In this document: in pieces, positions 4,425 to 11,608 of the stretch
How positions within the stretch are numbered: the stretch's first letter is position 1
How the letters are laid out: the number at the start of each line of letters is the position of its first letter
Source: Halorussus amylolyticus
Lineage (GTDB): Archaea; Halobacteriota; Halobacteria; Halobacteriales; Haladaptataceae
Reading direction: 5' to 3'
Length of the DNA: 33,528 nucleotides
Assembly (NCBI RefSeq): GCF_004143485.2
Contig: NZ_ML974141.1
Coordinates: 1,303-34,830 of the forward strand
Translations under genes and position numbers: made by a program
Notes under the pieces: generated by a model
What the model was told of the DNA's origin: nothing
Seen by the model: the letters and a program-made list of their open reading frames with translations, nothing else
Database searches by the model: none

Positions 4425-4979
4425 ATGCCCACAGTAGCAATCGTCGGCGGCGGCCCCGCTGGACTCAGTACCGCCCTGTTCACCGCGAAGAACGACCTCG
4501 ATACGGTCGTGTTCGACACCGACGAGACGTGGATGCACAAGGCGAGACTGTACAATTACCTCGGCATCGACGAAATCGACGGAAGCGAGTTCGTCGAGAA
4601 GGCCCGCTCGCAGGTCGAGCGCTTCGACGGCGACCTTCGGGTCGGCGAGGAGGTCACGGGCGTCGAGCAAGACGGCGACGGTTTCGCGCTCACCACGGAC
4701 GACGGCGAGTACGACGCCGAGTACGTGGTGTTCGCCACCGGGACCGACACCGACCTCGCCGAATCGCTCGACTGCGCCACGACCGACGAGGGTCTCGTGG
4801 ACGTGAATCTCCAGATGCAGACGAGCGTCGAGAACGCCTACGCCGTCGGGTCGATGATTCGCAATCAGACCTGGGAGGCCATCATCTCGGCGGGCGACGG
4901 CGGTGCGGCCGCGCTCGACATCCTGAGCACCGAAGCGGGCGAACCGGTCCACGACTTCGACACGCCCGACAGCGAGTAG
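4425..4979 (+). CDS. Small single-domain FAD-dependent oxidoreductase (thioredoxin reductase-like)
   Basis: The 184-residue protein opens with a dinucleotide-binding fingerprint (VAIVGGGPAGLS, residues about 4-15) followed by an acidic strand end (VVFDTDE). It also has the ATG motif (YVVFATGTDTD) and the C-terminal NAYAVGSM motif that contacts the flavin in thioredoxin reductase-like proteins. It is about 120 residues shorter than a true thioredoxin reductase: the NAD(P)H domain is missing and there is no CxxC redox pair. It therefore looks like the FAD fold alone and may need another electron donor, or it may bind flavin without reductase activity. This shortened type is, to my knowledge, common in haloarchaea, often annotated as FAD-dependent or NAD(P)/FAD-dependent oxidoreductase. 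It stands alone downstream of element copy A. Confidence 0.85.
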   Translation: MPTVAIVGGGPAGLSTALFTAKNDLDTVVFDTDETWMHKARLYNYLGIDEIDGSEFVEKARSQVERFDGDLRVGEEVTGVEQDGDGFALTTDDGEYDAEYVVFATGTDTDLAESLDCATTDEGLVDVNLQMQTSVENAYAVGSMIRNQTWEAIISAGDGGAAALDILSTEAGEPVHDFDTPDSE

Positions 4980-5079
4980 GCAGTCCTCCTTACGCCCCGT
5001 ATCTTCCGCGCTCCGATTCTCACACCTCCGATTCCCTCTGTCCCGCCGTTCACACATCACGAACGGATTCGACCGAATC

Positions 5080-6420
5080 TCAGACGGTCGTTCGAATCAG
5101 GTCGCCGACCTCCGCCGTAGTCGGCGGCGTGGCCCGAGCTATCGAGTCCACGAGAACGTACTGACCGAGTTCGCGAGTGAGCCACTCGACCGAGATGTCG
5201 TCGTCTGTGTCGTGGCGTTCGAGTCGGTCGTCGGCGTACTCGATACCGGCCGCGGCGTCCGCGAGAATGTGTCGGCCGAGGTTCGGATTCGACCCCGACT
5301 CGACCGCCGCTTCGACCGACTGAATCGCGCCGTTCCGAAGGTCTCGAACGTCGCCCGCGCTCTCGACGGTCACGTAGTCGCCGTCCTCGGCGCGCTCGCG
5401 GAGCGATTCGAACGCCCGAATGCGGACCAGCGTCTCGTGGACGGAGCGGACGGCACTCGCGTACTGACCCGTCTCGCGCTCTCCTTCGACTCCGTGGGCG
5501 TAGTCGATGGGGTGGAGGAGGTCGCTCAGCGCCGAAGCGACCGGCGTGTCCTCGATGTCGCGGTCCACGAGCGACGACGCGCCTCCGGAGTGGTCGTGAG
5601 GGACGGCCTCGCGCCGGTCGTCGAGTAGTCCCGAGAGCGACTTCACGGCGGTTTCAAGCCCGTTTCGAACGTCTCGCGTCTCGTCGAGCGACGACTCGTA
5701 TCGGTCGAAGAGGTATCCGGCGTCGTCGAGCGCGGCGCGCGCGTGTTCGACTTGCCCCGCGAACTCACCAATCGTCACCGGGTTCTCGGGTTCGTTGTCG
5801 CTCCGTCTGACACCGCTTTGGACCTGTCGAACTGCGGACGCCACCAATTCCTCGATTCGCGCGTGGGCTACCACCGCGCGAATCGAGTCGTCGCCGACGT
5901 AGCGCCACCGGCCGCGGAACGTCTCGACGCCGTTTCGGACCTCGGACGCAATCTCTCGCACGTCCCCGCTCGTGAGGCCGCTGTCGATGGTCTTCCACCC
6001 CGCCGCGACCGCTCGGGCGGACTCGCGCGCCCCTCGAATCTCGGCCGCCGATTCGACGCCTGTCTCCGCACGTTCCGCCCGTTCGAGGTGTTCGTTCGCT
6101 TGCTCGTGCATGGACGTGAGTTCCGCCCGAATCGCACCGTTTGGAATCTCGTCGGCGTCGAACGGCGCGGGAACCGATTCGAGGTCGTCCCGAGCGCGGG
6201 CCGCCGTCGCGTCGAGGTGCGACTGCTCGATGCGAACCGGGAACCGCTCGGACACGGTCGGAACGTCGCCCGAAATCGCATCGCGAAGGTCGTCACCGTC
6301 GATTTCCGGCGGGTCGTCCTCGAAGAAGTCGCTTCCGAAGCCGCCACATCCGGCGAGGGTCGCGCTCCCCGCGAGCGCCAAAAAGCCGCGCCGGGTGGCG
6401 GCCGACCTGTCACGCGTCAT
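5080..6420 (-). CDS. Tat-exported lipoprotein, mostly alpha-helical, function unknown
   Basis: The 446-residue protein begins with a twin-arginine signal (R10-R11-GFLALAGSA) ending in a lipobox LAGC with Cys25, so the mature protein should be lipid-anchored outside the membrane. The rest is hydrophilic and rich in Ala, Glu, Arg and Asp with long helix-forming stretches (for example HEQANEHLERAERAETG and SAVRQVQSG), suggesting a helical bundle. It has no Cys beyond the lipobox and no enzyme motif I recognise. The ATG at 6420 overlaps the stop codon of the preceding lipoprotein gene (ATGA arrangement), which points to translational coupling and a joint role at the cell surface. A longer in-frame start would destroy the signal peptide and is not plausible. 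Confidence 0.75.
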   Translation of the reverse strand: MTRDRSAATRRGFLALAGSATLAGCGGFGSDFFEDDPPEIDGDDLRDAISGDVPTVSERFPVRIEQSHLDATAARARDDLESVPAPFDADEIPNGAIRAELTSMHEQANEHLERAERAETGVESAAEIRGARESARAVAAGWKTIDSGLTSGDVREIASEVRNGVETFRGRWRYVGDDSIRAVVAHARIEELVASAVRQVQSGVRRSDNEPENPVTIGEFAGQVEHARAALDDAGYLFDRYESSLDETRDVRNGLETAVKSLSGLLDDRREAVPHDHSGGASSLVDRDIEDTPVASALSDLLHPIDYAHGVEGERETGQYASAVRSVHETLVRIRAFESLRERAEDGDYVTVESAGDVRDLRNGAIQSVEAAVESGSNPNLGRHILADAAAGIEYADDRLERHDTDDDISVEWLTRELGQYVLVDSIARATPPTTAEVGDLIRTTV

Positions 6421-7166
6421 CGACCGTCCTCCGTGGTTTCGGTGGTGTTTGCGGTCCCGCTGGTCTCTGCCGTCTCGGTCGTGCTGGTCGCGGATTTCGG
6501 GCCGAGGTCGGGCGCTTCGGTCGTGGCCCTCTCCTCGCGGGGGCGCTCGCGCCGACAGCCGCTGCTGCTCCACCCCGACCCGTGGCTGTTGACGTGCTCG
6601 GGGTCGATTCGTTCGGGAATGCGAATGAGGGTCGAAACCGACACTCTGGCGTCCGCGTCGCACGACACGTCGGCATCGCGGTATCCGCCACCGTACTGTG
6701 TGTCGATATCGGTGTCGGACCACGTCACCGAACAGAGTTCGAGGGTCTGACACTCGCCGACCGGGCGAGTTTCGACGTAGAGCGTCTCGGCGTCGAAGTC
6801 GGTGTTCGCCACGAACTTGCGGGCTTCGTCCGCACCATCGACGTCGCCGAACCACACGCGGGCGGCTTCGCCCTCCGTCGCGACGAATCCGCTCCGGCGT
6901 CCGCTCTCCGGGCGCGTTTCGGGCGGTGATTCGGCCGTCGTCTCGTCGTTCGAGTCGTCTTCGTCGGTGGGAAGTACGACGGGTGATTCCTCGCCGGAGT
7001 CTCGGAGCATACGGTGGTCGGGAACCGGTCCGTCGTTCGGTCGATTCGAATTCGTCGCCGTTGCCGACGATGAAGACGACTGCTCTATCGACTCTCCGCA
7101 CCCTGCCATCGCCGTCAGGAGGCCGACGGTGCCGTGGAGGAGGCGTCTGCGAGTGGTAGGGACCAT
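6417..7166 (-). CDS. Tat lipoprotein with acidic linker and C-terminal beta-rich domain
   Basis: The 249-residue protein has an N-terminal RRR, a short hydrophobic stretch and a lipobox AMAGC with Cys23. A Ser/Thr/Asp/Glu-rich linker (residues about 26-90) of the type seen on haloarchaeal surface proteins follows. A domain (about 95-200) then contains FVANTDFDAETLYVETRPVG, four Cys and STLIRIPERIDPE, and the tail is again Thr/Glu-rich. The pattern FVxxTDF...LYV...STLxR recurs in the broken lipoprotein gene at 9636, so I infer one family. The start at ATG 7166 puts the Tat motif near the N-terminus; an in-frame ATG at 7232 would place 22 extra residues before it. It precedes the larger lipoprotein gene with a 4-bp overlap. 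No function is known to me. Confidence 0.7.
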   Translation of the reverse strand: MVPTTRRRLLHGTVGLLTAMAGCGESIEQSSSSSATATNSNRPNDGPVPDHRMLRDSGEESPVVLPTDEDDSNDETTAESPPETRPESGRRSGFVATEGEAARVWFGDVDGADEARKFVANTDFDAETLYVETRPVGECQTLELCSVTWSDTDIDTQYGGGYRDADVSCDADARVSVSTLIRIPERIDPEHVNSHGSGWSSSGCRRERPREERATTEAPDLGPKSATSTTETAETSGTANTTETTEDGR

Positions 7167-7239
7167 GTTATTTGTCGTTCGGTGACAGAATATGAAGCTC
7201 CCGAATTCGACCGGTTTCGTGGTTACCGACATAGCGAAT

Positions 7240-7259
7240 TATTTGAATTATTTCAAATA
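7240..7259. promoter_or_regulatory. AT-only inverted repeat, candidate operator
   Basis: TATTTGAA and TTCAAATA form 8-bp arms around a TTAT spacer. The site lies in the AT-rich gap 7167-7343 between two divergent promoters. That stretch stands out sharply from the surrounding GC-rich DNA. Binding by a regulator is inferred from symmetry only. Confidence 0.4.
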
Positions 7260-7308
7260 TATGTAAATTTAGACATCGAAATTAAATATTGACTATTCGC
7301 ATACATAA

Positions 7309-7318
7309 ATTTATAATG
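7309..7318 (+). promoter_or_regulatory. TATA box of the secreted Cys-containing protein gene
   Basis: ATTTATAATG matches the TTTATA-type haloarchaeal box and lies about 30 nt before the ATG at 7344, giving a leaderless or nearly leaderless mRNA. It is one of the best TATA matches in the window. Confidence 0.55.
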
Positions 7319-7343
7319 GTGTAGTATTTCTATTTTCATTGCA

Positions 7344-8237
7344 ATGGAAGATAAAAATAATATTACGCGACGGAAAACCCTCTCGGCTACTGCCGGAATC
7401 GGCAGTGCGTTAGTCGGAGTTCCGGCCGTCGTGGCAGGCGACCCGAGCGGAAACGAAAATTCGGACGACCCGTCGGTAGCAGAACTCAAGGAATCGCTCC
7501 GAGAGTCCGAACACATAGTCGCGGAACCGGAGGCGTACCATCGGTTTACCGAAGAGTCGGTCTCCTTCGACTCTCTCAGTGCTTCCGACCTTCCCGACGA
7601 CCCCGAAATCTACTTCGGGGAGTACAAGAATGCGGAAGCACCGTCGGGTAAGTACGTCGAAGTTGGAAGTCCGACCGAACTGCAACAGCGCGACGTTCCC
7701 CTAGCCCTGCAGGGAGAAGCTGAGAGTCGTGTTGTTGGAGAGAACAACGTCGTAGAACCGGAGGTTAGCGACTTCTTCTACGTGGAAGGAGACGTCGGCT
7801 CGGCGACCCTCGAAGCCCACGGTCACGGTATCACCGTCGATGTGGCCGTCGGTGCCGGTCTCACAATCGACCTGATAACTTCGGACCTTCAGGTCGGTGC
7901 TACCCTCTCGATGGACATCACGTTCACCGTCAACGGGGTCAGCTTCACCGTGAGTCCCGTAAGCTTTGGCGTGTCCGCAGGACCGAGCGACAGAGATGGA
8001 TACTGCATCGGTCCGATAGGTATCGATTGGGGGTACCTGCCCGGCGGAGAAGTCGAACTGTGCGGGTCCTTCCAAATCAACTCACATCCCAACGGCGAAA
8101 TCAGCCTCGTCTTCTCGGTCGGCGGGCTCGATGTCTGTGCGGACCCGTGTCCGGGAATCAACTGTCCCGTTTGTGCGTCGGTGGTGGCGAGTTCGATCAG
8201 CTTCGAGACTCCCAGCTTCGACCCGAACCCCTTCTAG
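7344..8237 (+). CDS. Tat-secreted, Cys-containing beta-rich protein, function unknown (halocin-like organisation possible)
   Basis: The 297-residue protein starts with a Tat signal (TRRKTLSATAGIGSALVG, then PAVVAGDP) without a lipobox Cys, so it should be released. An acidic N-terminal half (residues about 32-150) is followed by alternating hydrophobic strands (HGITVDVAVGAGLTIDL and similar). The last 75 residues hold all six cysteines of the mature part, four of them in CADPCPGINCPVC. Halocin C8 is made as a Tat-dependent precursor with a Cys-rich C-terminal peptide; the layout here is reminiscent but I see no sequence match, and other secreted proteins fit as well. Codon use is less GC-biased than in neighbouring genes and the promoter region is very AT-rich, which suggests acquisition by transfer. 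A membrane-protein gene converges from the right. Confidence 0.7.
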   Translation: MEDKNNITRRKTLSATAGIGSALVGVPAVVAGDPSGNENSDDPSVAELKESLRESEHIVAEPEAYHRFTEESVSFDSLSASDLPDDPEIYFGEYKNAEAPSGKYVEVGSPTELQQRDVPLALQGEAESRVVGENNVVEPEVSDFFYVEGDVGSATLEAHGHGITVDVAVGAGLTIDLITSDLQVGATLSMDITFTVNGVSFTVSPVSFGVSAGPSDRDGYCIGPIGIDWGYLPGGEVELCGSFQINSHPNGEISLVFSVGGLDVCADPCPGINCPVCASVVASSISFETPSFDPNPF

Positions 8238-8245
8238 CGTTCGTC

Positions 8246-8292
8246 GGACGACCGGGAACCTTCTAGTCGTCCAAACGCTTTCCAGAATTTTT
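8246..8292 (+). terminator. Stem-loop and T-run after the secreted protein gene
   Basis: GGACGAC (8246-8252) pairs with GTCGTCC (8266-8272), extended outside by AGCGTT/AACGCT across a small internal loop. A run of five T (8288-8292) follows, within 55 nt of the stop codon. Further hairpins, GATGCG/CGCATC (8298-8311) and CGGGCAG/CTGCCCG (8412-8433), occupy the rest of this convergent gap. Confidence 0.45.
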
Positions 8293-8463
8293 CGGACGAT
8301 GCGAACGCATCAGTGTTGTCACCTACGATTCTGGGACTCCGGTGTGGTTTAGACTACTGTTTTCTGACCGCGCATCGGCTCTGTCGCGGTCTCGCGTACG
8401 ACTGCGTTCCACGGGCAGTGAGTGCTCTGCCCGGGCCGATGCGAAGCGTGCAAATTACCGGAT

Positions 8464-9348
8464 TCACCCGGACGTGGAGAACGCGAGTATCAAGAAGACG
8501 ACGAGGAGGGCGGCAAAGGTAGCGACGTACCCGAGAGCCACGCGTCCCGATAGTTCAATCGTCTCGGATGGCTCCGACGGCGTAAACCATGCGGCGTATC
8601 CCCCGGGGTCCGGCATCTGTTCTGCACGGTATCGACCCCACTCCAGACCGAGTTTCACCGCGAGGAACGAACCGGCCCACAGCACGTCGAATCCCCACGT
8701 GGGAAGTATCGACCCTGTGAGCACACTGACCGAGAGCGAGTAAAACAGTACCAGAGGAAGAGACAACACGTACACGAGGATGAACCGAACCGGTAGTTCG
8801 AGGGTCATGTACGCCGACAGTTCTTCGTATCGCTTACTTCGAATGTAACGACGGTGAATAGTGACTACGTGGGTGCCGAGTATGCCCAGTCCGACCCCGA
8901 AGACGACCGGCGATGTGAACGCCGAGAAGGCCGATAGAAATTCGGCGATGTCTCCGGCCCCGCCGCGTATCCCCAAATCCGGGTCGCCCGCCAGTCCGCT
9001 CGCTCCGAACACCACGACGACGAACGTCACGAAGAGCACCGTTGGAAGTACAACTCTCAGATTTCGGGTGTAAATCGGCGGGAGAGACCGAGCGATAGAC
9101 CGAGGCGCTTCGCTCCAGTATCCGTCCCCAATTGTCCCCGGAAGAAGCGTGGACTCGCGCTCCTCGACGGTGCTCTCCGACTGTGCGAACATCGCGTAGC
9201 CGCTGTAGACGAGCAACAACGCCACTACATCGAACCAGTAGAGTAGTCCGAGCGTCATAAACTCCAAGTCGAACAGAAAATACCCTACTAGTGGTAGTAG
9301 ATTGGCAATTCCTATCAGTCCGAAATCGAGGATGTCACTTTTGTCCAT
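8464..9348 (-). CDS. Polytopic membrane protein, DUF6498-like
   Basis: The 294-residue protein has about seven hydrophobic segments. It starts with IGIANLLPLVGYFLFDLEF and LGLLYWFDVVALLLVYSG; the pattern 'NLxPLxG...LLYWxxxV' resembles the DUF6498 family of membrane proteins as I remember it. A charged cytoplasmic or external loop with HRRYIRSKRYEEL separates the two halves. No active-site residues are apparent. The gene converges on the secreted Cys-containing protein gene. A link between the two, for example immunity or export, is only a guess from position. A strong TATA-like CATATAAATA at 9361-9370 lies about 18 nt before the ATG, slightly closer than usual, so the true start or transcription start is not fully settled. 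Confidence 0.72.
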   Translation of the reverse strand: MDKSDILDFGLIGIANLLPLVGYFLFDLEFMTLGLLYWFDVVALLLVYSGYAMFAQSESTVEERESTLLPGTIGDGYWSEAPRSIARSLPPIYTRNLRVVLPTVLFVTFVVVVFGASGLAGDPDLGIRGGAGDIAEFLSAFSAFTSPVVFGVGLGILGTHVVTIHRRYIRSKRYEELSAYMTLELPVRFILVYVLSLPLVLFYSLSVSVLTGSILPTWGFDVLWAGSFLAVKLGLEWGRYRAEQMPDPGGYAAWFTPSEPSETIELSGRVALGYVATFAALLVVFLILAFSTSG

Positions 9349-9635: not shown

Positions 9636-10295
9636 ATGAGGCGGCGCGAGGTTTTCGCCGGTATCGGGGCCGTCGCTCTCACCGCTGGCTGCCTCGGCGA
9701 CACGACCGGAGCACCGGAAACGACCGACGAGGGGGACCGAGAGACGGCCCGGAAGGGGGCCGACGAGGATGCGGCGGACAGCGAGTCCGCCGAGGGCAAA
9801 CTGAAGGAGATGCCCGCAGATATGGACGAGATAGAGTACCGAGAGAGATACTTCGCGCGGACCCACGAGACGCCGACATGGGCTGAATCTCAGGAACGAC
9901 CTTTCGGGAACCTAGAGCTGTACGATTCAGCCGATTGGGCTCGCGAGGCCCTCCCGTTCGAGGCGGTCGCGGATGGGCGGGAAGACGAACTCCGCGAGTT
10001 CGTCGACGGGACCGACTTCGGCCGCTCACGGCTCCTCTATGTGGTCGCGGTCGGACTGGGGACAAGCGACCTCGTGACGGGAGTCTAATAGCTCGGCGTT
10101 CACGACGACAGAATCGTCGGTACCGCAACGATACGAAACGGCGAGGAGGGCGATTCGATGGATATGTACGCGTCCACGCTCGTGCGCGCCACATTTGACG
10201 AGGACGCCCATCTCCCCGACCGAGCGGTGCTATCAGTCGCTTCGTACAACGCTAGAACGGGTGTTGTCGAAGCGACAACAGACGGGAGCAACTAG
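9636..10295 (+). pseudogene. Tat lipoprotein gene interrupted by tandem in-frame stop codons
   Basis: The intact first part encodes 150 residues: a twin-arginine start (MRRREVF), lipobox LTAGC with Cys19, an acidic linker, and a domain with LREFVDGTDFGRSRLLYVVAVG. It stops at TAA 10086-10088, immediately followed by TAG 10089-10091. The same frame then stays open for 67 more codons to TAG 10293-10295, encoding LGVHDDRIVGTATIRNG and ASTLVRATF. This tail continues the domain pattern seen in the lipoprotein at 6417-7166 (FV..TDF...LYV...STLIR), so I infer that one longer gene was broken. A truncated protein could still be made and exported. Suppression of both stops is unlikely but would restore a protein of about 219 residues. 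Confidence 0.65.
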
Positions 10296-10330: not shown

Positions 10331-11608
10331 TTATTTGCGGCCCTCGAACGCCGCTCGAAGCTCCTCCTGCATGAACTCCCGGCGGACCTTCCGCGCGCGC
10401 TCGTCCGAGAGATAGTTCGACATGACCACGCGCGGGTCGTCGCTCCCCTGCTCGGCAGCGATGTCTTCCAGTCCCTCCAGCACCGCTTCCAGGACCGAGG
10501 TGTACGTGTCGTACCAGAATCGGCGACAGAGCTGCGGACTCGGGCGCTCGCCGTCGATTTCCTCAGGGAGTCCCGCACGGTCCGCGAGGTCGCGGAACCA
10601 CGCCCAGACGCGCTCGCGGGTCACGTGCGGGTCCGCGCCCTGCCGCGACGGAAAGAGGTGACCCGACCAGGTCTCGCGGTCGGCGAGTTCGTCGAGTCGG
10701 GCGTCGAGCGCGTCCAATCCGTAGACGACGTTGACCTCGCCCGGCCCGTTCTTTCGCTCCTCGAACGCGACGTACGGCACCTCGTCGTCGGCCACGTCGC
10801 GGACGATTTGGGAGACGTGAAGCCGTGCGACTTCGTTCGCGCGCAGGCCCCACGCCGCGAGCGCGACGACCAGCAGGCGTTCGCGGGGCGAGTCGGCCGT
10901 GCCGACGAGCGCCCGGACGTGCCCGGCCGCGAGCGGCGACGGGTCAGAGTTCTCGGCTTGCCACCGGAATTCGTCGTACAGTCCCGTCGCGGGGTTGACT
11001 GCGGCGAGGCGGCGGCCGACGAGGTGCTGGTACCAGTCGTCCACTACCCCTCGAACGCGCGCTTTGGTCCGCGCGCTGTACGAGCGACCGTCGAGCCAGT
11101 CGAACGCGGCGTAACACGCGCTGACTGCCTCGTGGGTTGGAGTCTCGCTGCCGATGGCGACCGGCGAGAGCAGGTCGTCTGCGTCGTTCGCCGCGCGATA
11201 CGCCCGGACGTAAAGATTCAGGCGACGGCGCTTGGTTTCGATTGACGACTCGCGGAGCGAGTGTCGGGTACGCCGCCGGTCGAGGAACGTTTCGAGCGCG
11301 TCCCGCGTGTCGGCGTGGTCGGTCGCCCAATCGTACCCCTCATCGCCGCCGAGACCGAGGTCCTCGCGCCAGAAGTCGCCGAACGACCGGCCGTGGTGTC
11401 GTCGCAGGGCGGCGAGAAACCCCCTGAGTCCGCGGTCGCGAAACCACTGGTGGGTCGGTCTGTGAGTTTCGGGGTCGTATCCCTCGACTTCGAGGCGAGG
11501 TGCGACGGTCCCCCAGTAGAGGCTCTGGAAATCCGCGAGCGAGAGCGTCGTCCAGCGAACGTCGCCGAAGGGCCCCGAGTCGGTCGTTTCGGTGGGTTTC
11601 TCGGTCAC
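10331..11608 (-). CDS. Tyrosine-type site-specific recombinase (integrase family)
   Basis: The 425-residue protein has an N-terminal core-binding-like helical region (residues about 100-200) and a C-terminal catalytic region. I assign Arg256 (AAWGLRANEVARLH), Lys286 (EERKNGPGE), Arg362 (PSPQLCRRFWYDTY) and Tyr399 (VVMSNYLSDE) to the RKHRHY scheme. The usual box II His appears replaced by Gln359, which is atypical. To my knowledge similar proteins occur widely in haloarchaeal chromosomes, so it may be a resident recombinase rather than the integrase of a recent element. The only start in frame before an upstream stop is GTG 11608. That GTG overlaps the stop of a 30-codon ORF, so translation may be coupled. 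The neighbouring 7.2-10.3 kb has accessory features, but I found no attachment-site repeats. Confidence 0.8.
   Translation of the reverse strand: MTEKPTETTDSGPFGDVRWTTLSLADFQSLYWGTVAPRLEVEGYDPETHRPTHQWFRDRGLRGFLAALRRHHGRSFGDFWREDLGLGGDEGYDWATDHADTRDALETFLDRRRTRHSLRESSIETKRRRLNLYVRAYRAANDADDLLSPVAIGSETPTHEAVSACYAAFDWLDGRSYSARTKARVRGVVDDWYQHLVGRRLAAVNPATGLYDEFRWQAENSDPSPLAAGHVRALVGTADSPRERLLVVALAAWGLRANEVARLHVSQIVRDVADDEVPYVAFEERKNGPGEVNVVYGLDALDARLDELADRETWSGHLFPSRQGADPHVTRERVWAWFRDLADRAGLPEEIDGERPSPQLCRRFWYDTYTSVLEAVLEGLEDIAAEQGSDDPRVVMSNYLSDERARKVRREFMQEELRAAFEGRK

Follow-up and report, generated by a model that had tools for sequence, protein, structure and literature searches.

The genes of few halocins are known. 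According to PMC11509114, the halocin C8 precursor is 283 aa long, and immunity is credited to HalI, a part of that same precursor. PMC12893001 describes the release of active C-terminal fragments from both HalH4 and HalC8, halocin H4 (HFX_5264, Haloferax mediterranei) being a secreted precursor that the HlyR4 protease converts into its active C-terminal fragment, and presents HmHapP (HFX_0892) as a precursor that a serine protease activates outside the cell. In the same paper, the antagonism exerted by H. mediterranei is said to survive deletion of halH4, and a hapP knockout still makes inhibition zones. Halocin H4 is also reported, in PMC6759562, to influence DNA uptake in H. mediterranei.

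We analysed a 33,528-nt stretch of Halorussus amylolyticus DNA, hereafter the window, in which a gene for a Tat-type secreted precursor (SEC) lies convergent to a gene for a polytopic membrane protein (Table 1). Together they represent a module with a two-part effector and an exchangeable membrane partner, and this much is well supported. From the anatomy of the secreted protein and the company it keeps, we read the pair as a halocin-type effector–immunity module, a reading to which we give a little better than an even chance.

SEC resembles halocin C8 (ProC8, TIGR04449 halocin_C8_dom) in being a Tat-type precursor of similar length with a Cys-rich C-terminal part. It differs in having six cysteines in a domain of ~150 residues, against 10 in most of the C8-like precursors compared, and in the proposed source of immunity, a separate membrane gene instead of a part of the precursor. 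The parallel with halocin C8 drawn in a preliminary description of this DNA holds for the design and not for sequence kinship: 0 of 17 SEC members matched TIGR04449 at E <= 1 in an NCBIfam scan, and membership of the halocin C8 family was rejected. Among 18 genomes of the genus, TIGR04449 itself had matches in 8, at 14 places altogether, including one in the H. amylolyticus genome. Compared by description only, SEC can be likened to halocin H4 as a secreted precursor with a C-terminal fragment, putative in the case of SEC, whereas the active part of HmHapP is N-terminal and helical and the Cys domain of SEC is C-terminal and, in weak models, strand-like. A primer-derived halH4 pattern revealed no halH4 in 170 genomes.

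Table 1. Features of the SEC locus and its surroundings (positions in the window)
Feature	Position	Strand	Basis and remarks
Lipoprotein-like left neighbour, conserved, outside the module; left border of the variable spot	6417..7166	-	Syntenic in G009, G006, G003 and G001
AT-rich intergenic region, 5' of the SEC gene	7167..7343	.	31.1% G+C; TATA-like TTTATA at 7310-7315
SEC gene, encoding a 297-aa Tat-type secreted precursor	7344..8237	+	ORF, start motif, relatives, 17-row alignment
Putative pro-region, residues 33-147	7440..7784	+	Acidic, Cys-free; IYFGEYKNA-type motif conserved at residues 89-97
C-terminal domain, residues 148-297	7785..8234	+	Hydrophobic, low charge; Cys 221, 240, 265, 269, 274, 277
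Polytopic membrane protein of 294 aa, DUF6498-like; proposed immunity protein	8464..9348	-	Pfam match below cut-off, relatives, hydrophobicity
Short lipoprotein-like ORF, 150 aa, inside the segment absent from relatives	9636..10088	+	Pfam and NCBIfam: nothing at E <= 1
Tyrosine-recombinase-like gene, right border of the variable spot	10331..11608	-	Phage_integrase 18.6 bits (cut-off 27.1); NCBIfam XerC/D-type under cut-off

Layout and distribution of the secreted protein family

The SEC protein has a Tat-type start (TRRKTL), and the two arginines at residues 9-10 are invariant in all 17 aligned SEC proteins, so that export by the Tat route is predicted. Equally invariant are G92, A97, G172, C221, C240 and C269, and G152, C265, C274 and C277 are kept in at least 90% of the 17 proteins. 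The Tat-type start and the six terminal cysteines had been recognised beforehand; the latter occupy the last 77 residues, the first being residue 221, and not the last 75 as then stated. All 17 members measured have the same two-part layout. Their pro-regions are acidic (D+E 14-29%) and devoid of cysteine, with GRAVY values of -0.45 to -1.36, and their last 150 residues contain 5-15% D+E and 6-8 cysteines, with GRAVY values of 0.00 to 0.56. The left border of the pro-region was placed at the signal end by analogy, and the right one at the start of the last 150 residues used for composition.

Two AlphaFold2 models suggested, with low confidence, a C-terminal domain made mostly of beta strands; their mean pLDDT (41.2 and 33.1) was too low for a fold search. 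A PDB search with SEC gave no convincing match, the four matches at E 0.02-0.21 all falling on the N-terminal half, and a further PDB search gave none. The SEC protein of the window had no match in Pfam, NCBIfam, PHROGs or PADLOC, and its 17 aligned relatives returned just the Tat signal and scattered weak matches in library scans. SEC is a haloarchaeal family that none of the searched libraries describes.

The initial statement that no homology was seen did not survive, as relatives were found for both genes. SEC relatives occur in 4 of 99 related genomes. In the order, a five-row SEC profile matched 18 of 392 genomes at E <= 0.001, and SEC was found over a substantial length in 13 of the 392, which is a patchy presence. 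A 17-row profile added one genome, G464, when run on 170 genomes of another family, and the SEC matches listed for 294 sampled genomes of the phylum all lay within the same order. Among plasmid records there was one SEC match, on pHME132 of H. mediterranei ATCC 33500 (30.7% identity over 93%), and a scan of genome contigs gave one locus, in Halorussus aquaticus. No SEC relatives were found in viral contigs or in phages. The candidates G060, G099, G106 and G244, as well as most weak rows of two wider profile searches, were rejected because the match was confined to the Tat region, and G123 (locus L100) was set aside, its match covering 24 C-terminal positions only.

Altogether 23 SEC loci had usable flanks. 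Left out of this count were the window's own duplicate on contig C16, the contig-end fragments L095 and L141, and L100; retained in it were four imperfect loci: L097, where a stop interrupts the signal region; L098, whose partner lies in two frames; L140, whose SEC lacks the N-terminus; and L099, with two of the six cysteines out of place. As for the duplicate, the window (contig C7) occurs twice in the assembly: contig C16 (34830 bp) is a near-exact repeat of the C7 start, with 99.89% identity over its first 16 kb and, over 19992 bp, 99.96% with 8 mismatches. Either the duplication is genuine or it arose in the assembly. Beside the SEC fragment of L095, positions 1924-2863 hold repeated peptide-like motifs, in overlapping ORFs, that resemble a translated CRISPR-type repeat array.

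Linkage to exchangeable membrane partners

The convergent gene had been described as encoding a polytopic membrane protein, and a Kyte-Doolittle scan indeed gave six hydrophobic segments. Against Pfam DUF6498, the window protein scored 15.9 bits, under the gathering cut-off of 23.7. Partners of other SEC genes exceeded that cut-off (L086, 42.4 bits; L092, 39.9; L088, 34.8), and the window protein is 47% identical to that of L086. DUF6498 (PF20108) was matched at E <= 0.01 by 16 of the 17 proteins of partner alignment A3; the L094 partner, which had no match to the DUF6498 model, was assigned via the profile of its relatives before its own inclusion (E 1.8e-36). DUF6498 has no recorded function, and the term was not found in the literature searched.

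A membrane-family gene adjoins SEC in 21 of the 23 loci. Twelve of these partners are DUF6498-like (window, L039, L041, L042, L086, L088, L092, L094, L096, L097, L098 and L140), seven are GIDE-like (L040, L087, L089 with two copies, L090, L091, L103 and L099) and two belong to DUF4870 (L101 and L102, whose short SEC members are orthologous). The two SEC genes with none of these are L093 (G250; 6034-6846) and L139 (G464; 4542-5348), orthologues from two genomes of one genus. L099 has an extra DUF4870 gene further along. The GIDE-like name is a putative one, resting on matches beneath the Pfam cut-off: 3 of 8 such proteins match the Pfam GIDE model at E <= 0.01, and those seen were under the cut-off.

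SEC and its partner are 22 to 283 bp apart (20 pairs measured, L140 left out), in no fixed order. Indeed, DUF6498 pairs occur in all four arrangements, namely convergent (window, L039, L097), divergent (L041, L042, L092), tandem with the partner downstream (L086, L088, L098) and tandem with the partner upstream (L094, L096 and, from coordinates, L140). Six GIDE-like partners are in tandem downstream of SEC, and one (L099) is convergent. Partner type followed the SEC phylogeny: mapped on a 22-protein SEC tree, the four states of the partner needed 4 changes, the least possible being 3, and shuffled states needed 9.6 on average, with 0 of 200 shuffles as low as 4. Gene order needed 6 changes on the SEC tree. 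Distances among SEC proteins and among their DUF6498 partners were correlated (r = 0.955; 0 of 5000 permutations as high) over 9 of the 12 pairs, L097, L098 and L140 being left out, a correlation that may stem partly from shared species history, although several genomes supply two copies. At L097, with its interrupted SEC copy, the DUF6498 partner is of a long, common type.

What was found is thus what is looked for in an effector–immunity pair, that is, an adjacent cognate partner that is kept beyond gene order. The preliminary description had proposed to check co-occurrence and would have given up its idea had the two genes not gone together. They were found together; since this is so in different gene orders, and since partner type tracks the SEC phylogeny, that objection fails.

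In the genus, the spot that holds the window pair is variable, and the SEC/partner pair behaves there as a unit that can be present or absent, through gain or loss. With a thioredoxin-reductase-like gene and two lipoprotein-like genes as left markers and a membrane marker on the right, the same stretch was found in four genomes of the genus, and the pair is missing at the spot in all four. The matches of the left lipoprotein and of the right marker are 81 bp apart in G009, and 102 bp separate the lipoprotein from the recombinase-like gene in G006. Copies of this last gene, 81% identical, are present in G006 and G003, both of which lack the pair, and absent there in G009 and G001. The G+C content of the pair is 57-58%, against at least 66% for its left and right neighbours. 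In G014, the pair is separated by other genes from the same right marker, which is ~10 kb away. The short lipoprotein-like ORF next to the window pair was not found in L162-L166, L039, L041 or L042 (E <= 1e-5); its protein has a short stretch in common with that of the left lipoprotein-like neighbour (12/26 identical, E 0.007).

DUF6498-like and GIDE-like genes are both more widespread than SEC: the former were matched in 31 of 99 genomes (52 rows), against four for SEC, and the latter in 26 of 98 (32 rows). No SEC lay near any of 14 further DUF6498 loci (L043-L056), two Natribaculum plasmids carry DUF6498 without SEC, and 5 of 6 GIDE-like plasmid records had no SEC around the best place (3 kb on each side). 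On a tree of 25 DUF6498 proteins, paired versus orphan status needed 5 changes, and 3 of 500 shuffles were as low. Two orphans (G001, G018) are nested in paired clades; orphan L043 groups with the window and L039 (support 100/99), and orphan L051 with L092, L041 and L042 (support 94/91). Four others (L046, L049, L050, L054) have one common chromosomal setting, and its fixity suggests a general role for DUF6498-like genes. Lone partners are what orphan immunity genes would look like; some chromosomal settings suggest other roles.

A GIDE-like 2-TM gene is also convergent to 5 of the 14 halocin-C8-domain genes (L177, L178, L180, L181, L182). Among these C8-linked genes, one of the four scanned was above the Pfam GIDE cut-off. 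A profile built from four of their proteins matched the L099 partner (E 5.4e-13) and, to a moderate degree, the main group of SEC partners (probability 83%, E 8.9e-6). The five cases look orthologous and therefore amount to one event, and the remaining 9 places lack such a gene. The H. amylolyticus example, on contig C2 (L180:2325-3991), is a halocin-C8-domain precursor with its convergent GIDE-like 2-TM gene, an arrangement common to four other genomes of the genus.

Readings of the pair

In the effector–immunity reading, SEC would leave the cell folded, via Tat, as an inactive precursor, whose acidic pro-region an extracellular protease would strip off. The freed C-terminal domain would be compact, hydrophobic and probably disulfide-linked, and might act on rival haloarchaea at their surface or membrane. 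The DUF6498-like protein would guard the producer, either by binding the mature domain or by shielding its membrane target. This reading draws on the linkage, the placing of partner type on the SEC tree, the correlated distances, the two-part layout, the orphan partners and the patchiness of SEC, and also on the GIDE-like gene beside halocin-C8 genes and the SEC/GIDE-like pair of H. mediterranei. Against it count the two SEC loci without a partner, the much greater commonness of DUF6498-like genes, the fixed settings of some orphans, the common type of the L097 partner, the sub-cut-off GIDE-like name, the single event behind the C8/GIDE link and the location of HalI within the halocin C8 precursor. 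SEC is also less variable than many toxins, which counts against the reading as well. A secreted antimicrobial with an immunity partner, suggested beforehand as one possibility, is nonetheless the best explanation: the pairing is borne out by linkage and by partner type following the SEC phylogeny, while the antimicrobial activity is what we infer from them.

The main rival is the export role that the preliminary description had also named for the membrane gene. SEC would then be a surface or matrix protein, and its neighbour would be devoted to exporting, folding, anchoring or processing it, with no antagonism involved. The same linkage and co-divergence fit such a pair, and DUF6498-like genes are common, so that they may have a general membrane role. 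Yet a single partner family would be expected, whereas unrelated membrane families were found, and partners exist without SEC. Moreover, the patchiness of SEC is unlike that of a core surface protein. We regard this rival as unlikely, and still less probable is that SEC acts as a pheromone-like secreted signal with the membrane protein as its receptor, for instance in mating or DNA uptake. A ligand and its receptor would co-diverge too, and the effect on DNA uptake reported for halocin H4 would suit the idea. However, Pfam scans of the DUF6498-like, GIDE-like and DUF4870 partners showed no signalling domain. An acidic pro-region followed by a hydrophobic Cys domain is, besides, more typical of toxin precursors.

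Adjacency might finally reflect an insertion hot spot or shared locus ancestry, the partners being mere neutral neighbours. The window pair does have a recombinase-like gene next to it, at a spot that varies, and SEC loci are related, hence not independent. This is nonetheless very improbable in view of the four gene orders of DUF6498 pairs, of the 6 order changes on the SEC tree and of the G014 pair, whose flanking genes differ from those of the window pair. Were the loci independent, the rough P for the linkage would be ~1e-33 for DUF6498 (11/21) and ~1e-21 for GIDE-like genes (7/21), values that are too small because the loci are related.

Returning to the effector–immunity reading, H. mediterranei ATCC 33500 carries on pHME132 a SEC/GIDE-like pair (L103:6001-7766), WP_004060528.1 (SEC) and WP_004060527.1 (GIDE-like), both annotated as hypothetical protein. 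We tentatively put forward, as a possible though rather doubtful extension, that SEC is a new halocin class with interchangeable immunity proteins (DUF6498-like, GIDE-like or DUF4870, depending on the effector branch), and that WP_004060528.1 is one of the antagonistic precursors of H. mediterranei. With this pair, the antimicrobial question can be put to a direct test. More broadly, the SEC family, with its precursor layout and dedicated membrane gene, provides named genes to delete and express, and gives DUF6498 and archaeal GIDE-like proteins first testable roles. If true, the reading would mean that haloarchaea have effector–immunity pairing with separate immunity genes.

The AT-rich region upstream of the secreted protein gene

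The region ahead of the SEC gene had been singled out as strikingly AT-rich, and with 31.1% G+C, against 65.3% for the whole window, it is indeed its most AT-rich stretch. Only 70 of 33351 segments of 177 bp were equally poor in G+C, all of them beginning at 7162-7239, and elsewhere in the window the minimum for a segment of that size was 42.9%. The TATA box noted earlier is there as well: TTTATA lies 34 nt 5' of the SEC ATG, and the + strand of the entire window has 4 occurrences of TTTAWA. The 8-bp inverted repeat is likewise present, in two instances (7240/7252 and 7264/7306), and was rejected as a signal, being at chance level: when the gap was shuffled 1000 times with its dinucleotides preserved, such a repeat was present in 406 cases. 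In the SEC family, the 180 bp upstream of the gene were below the G+C of the locus, taken as its own yardstick, in 19 of the 19 members measured.
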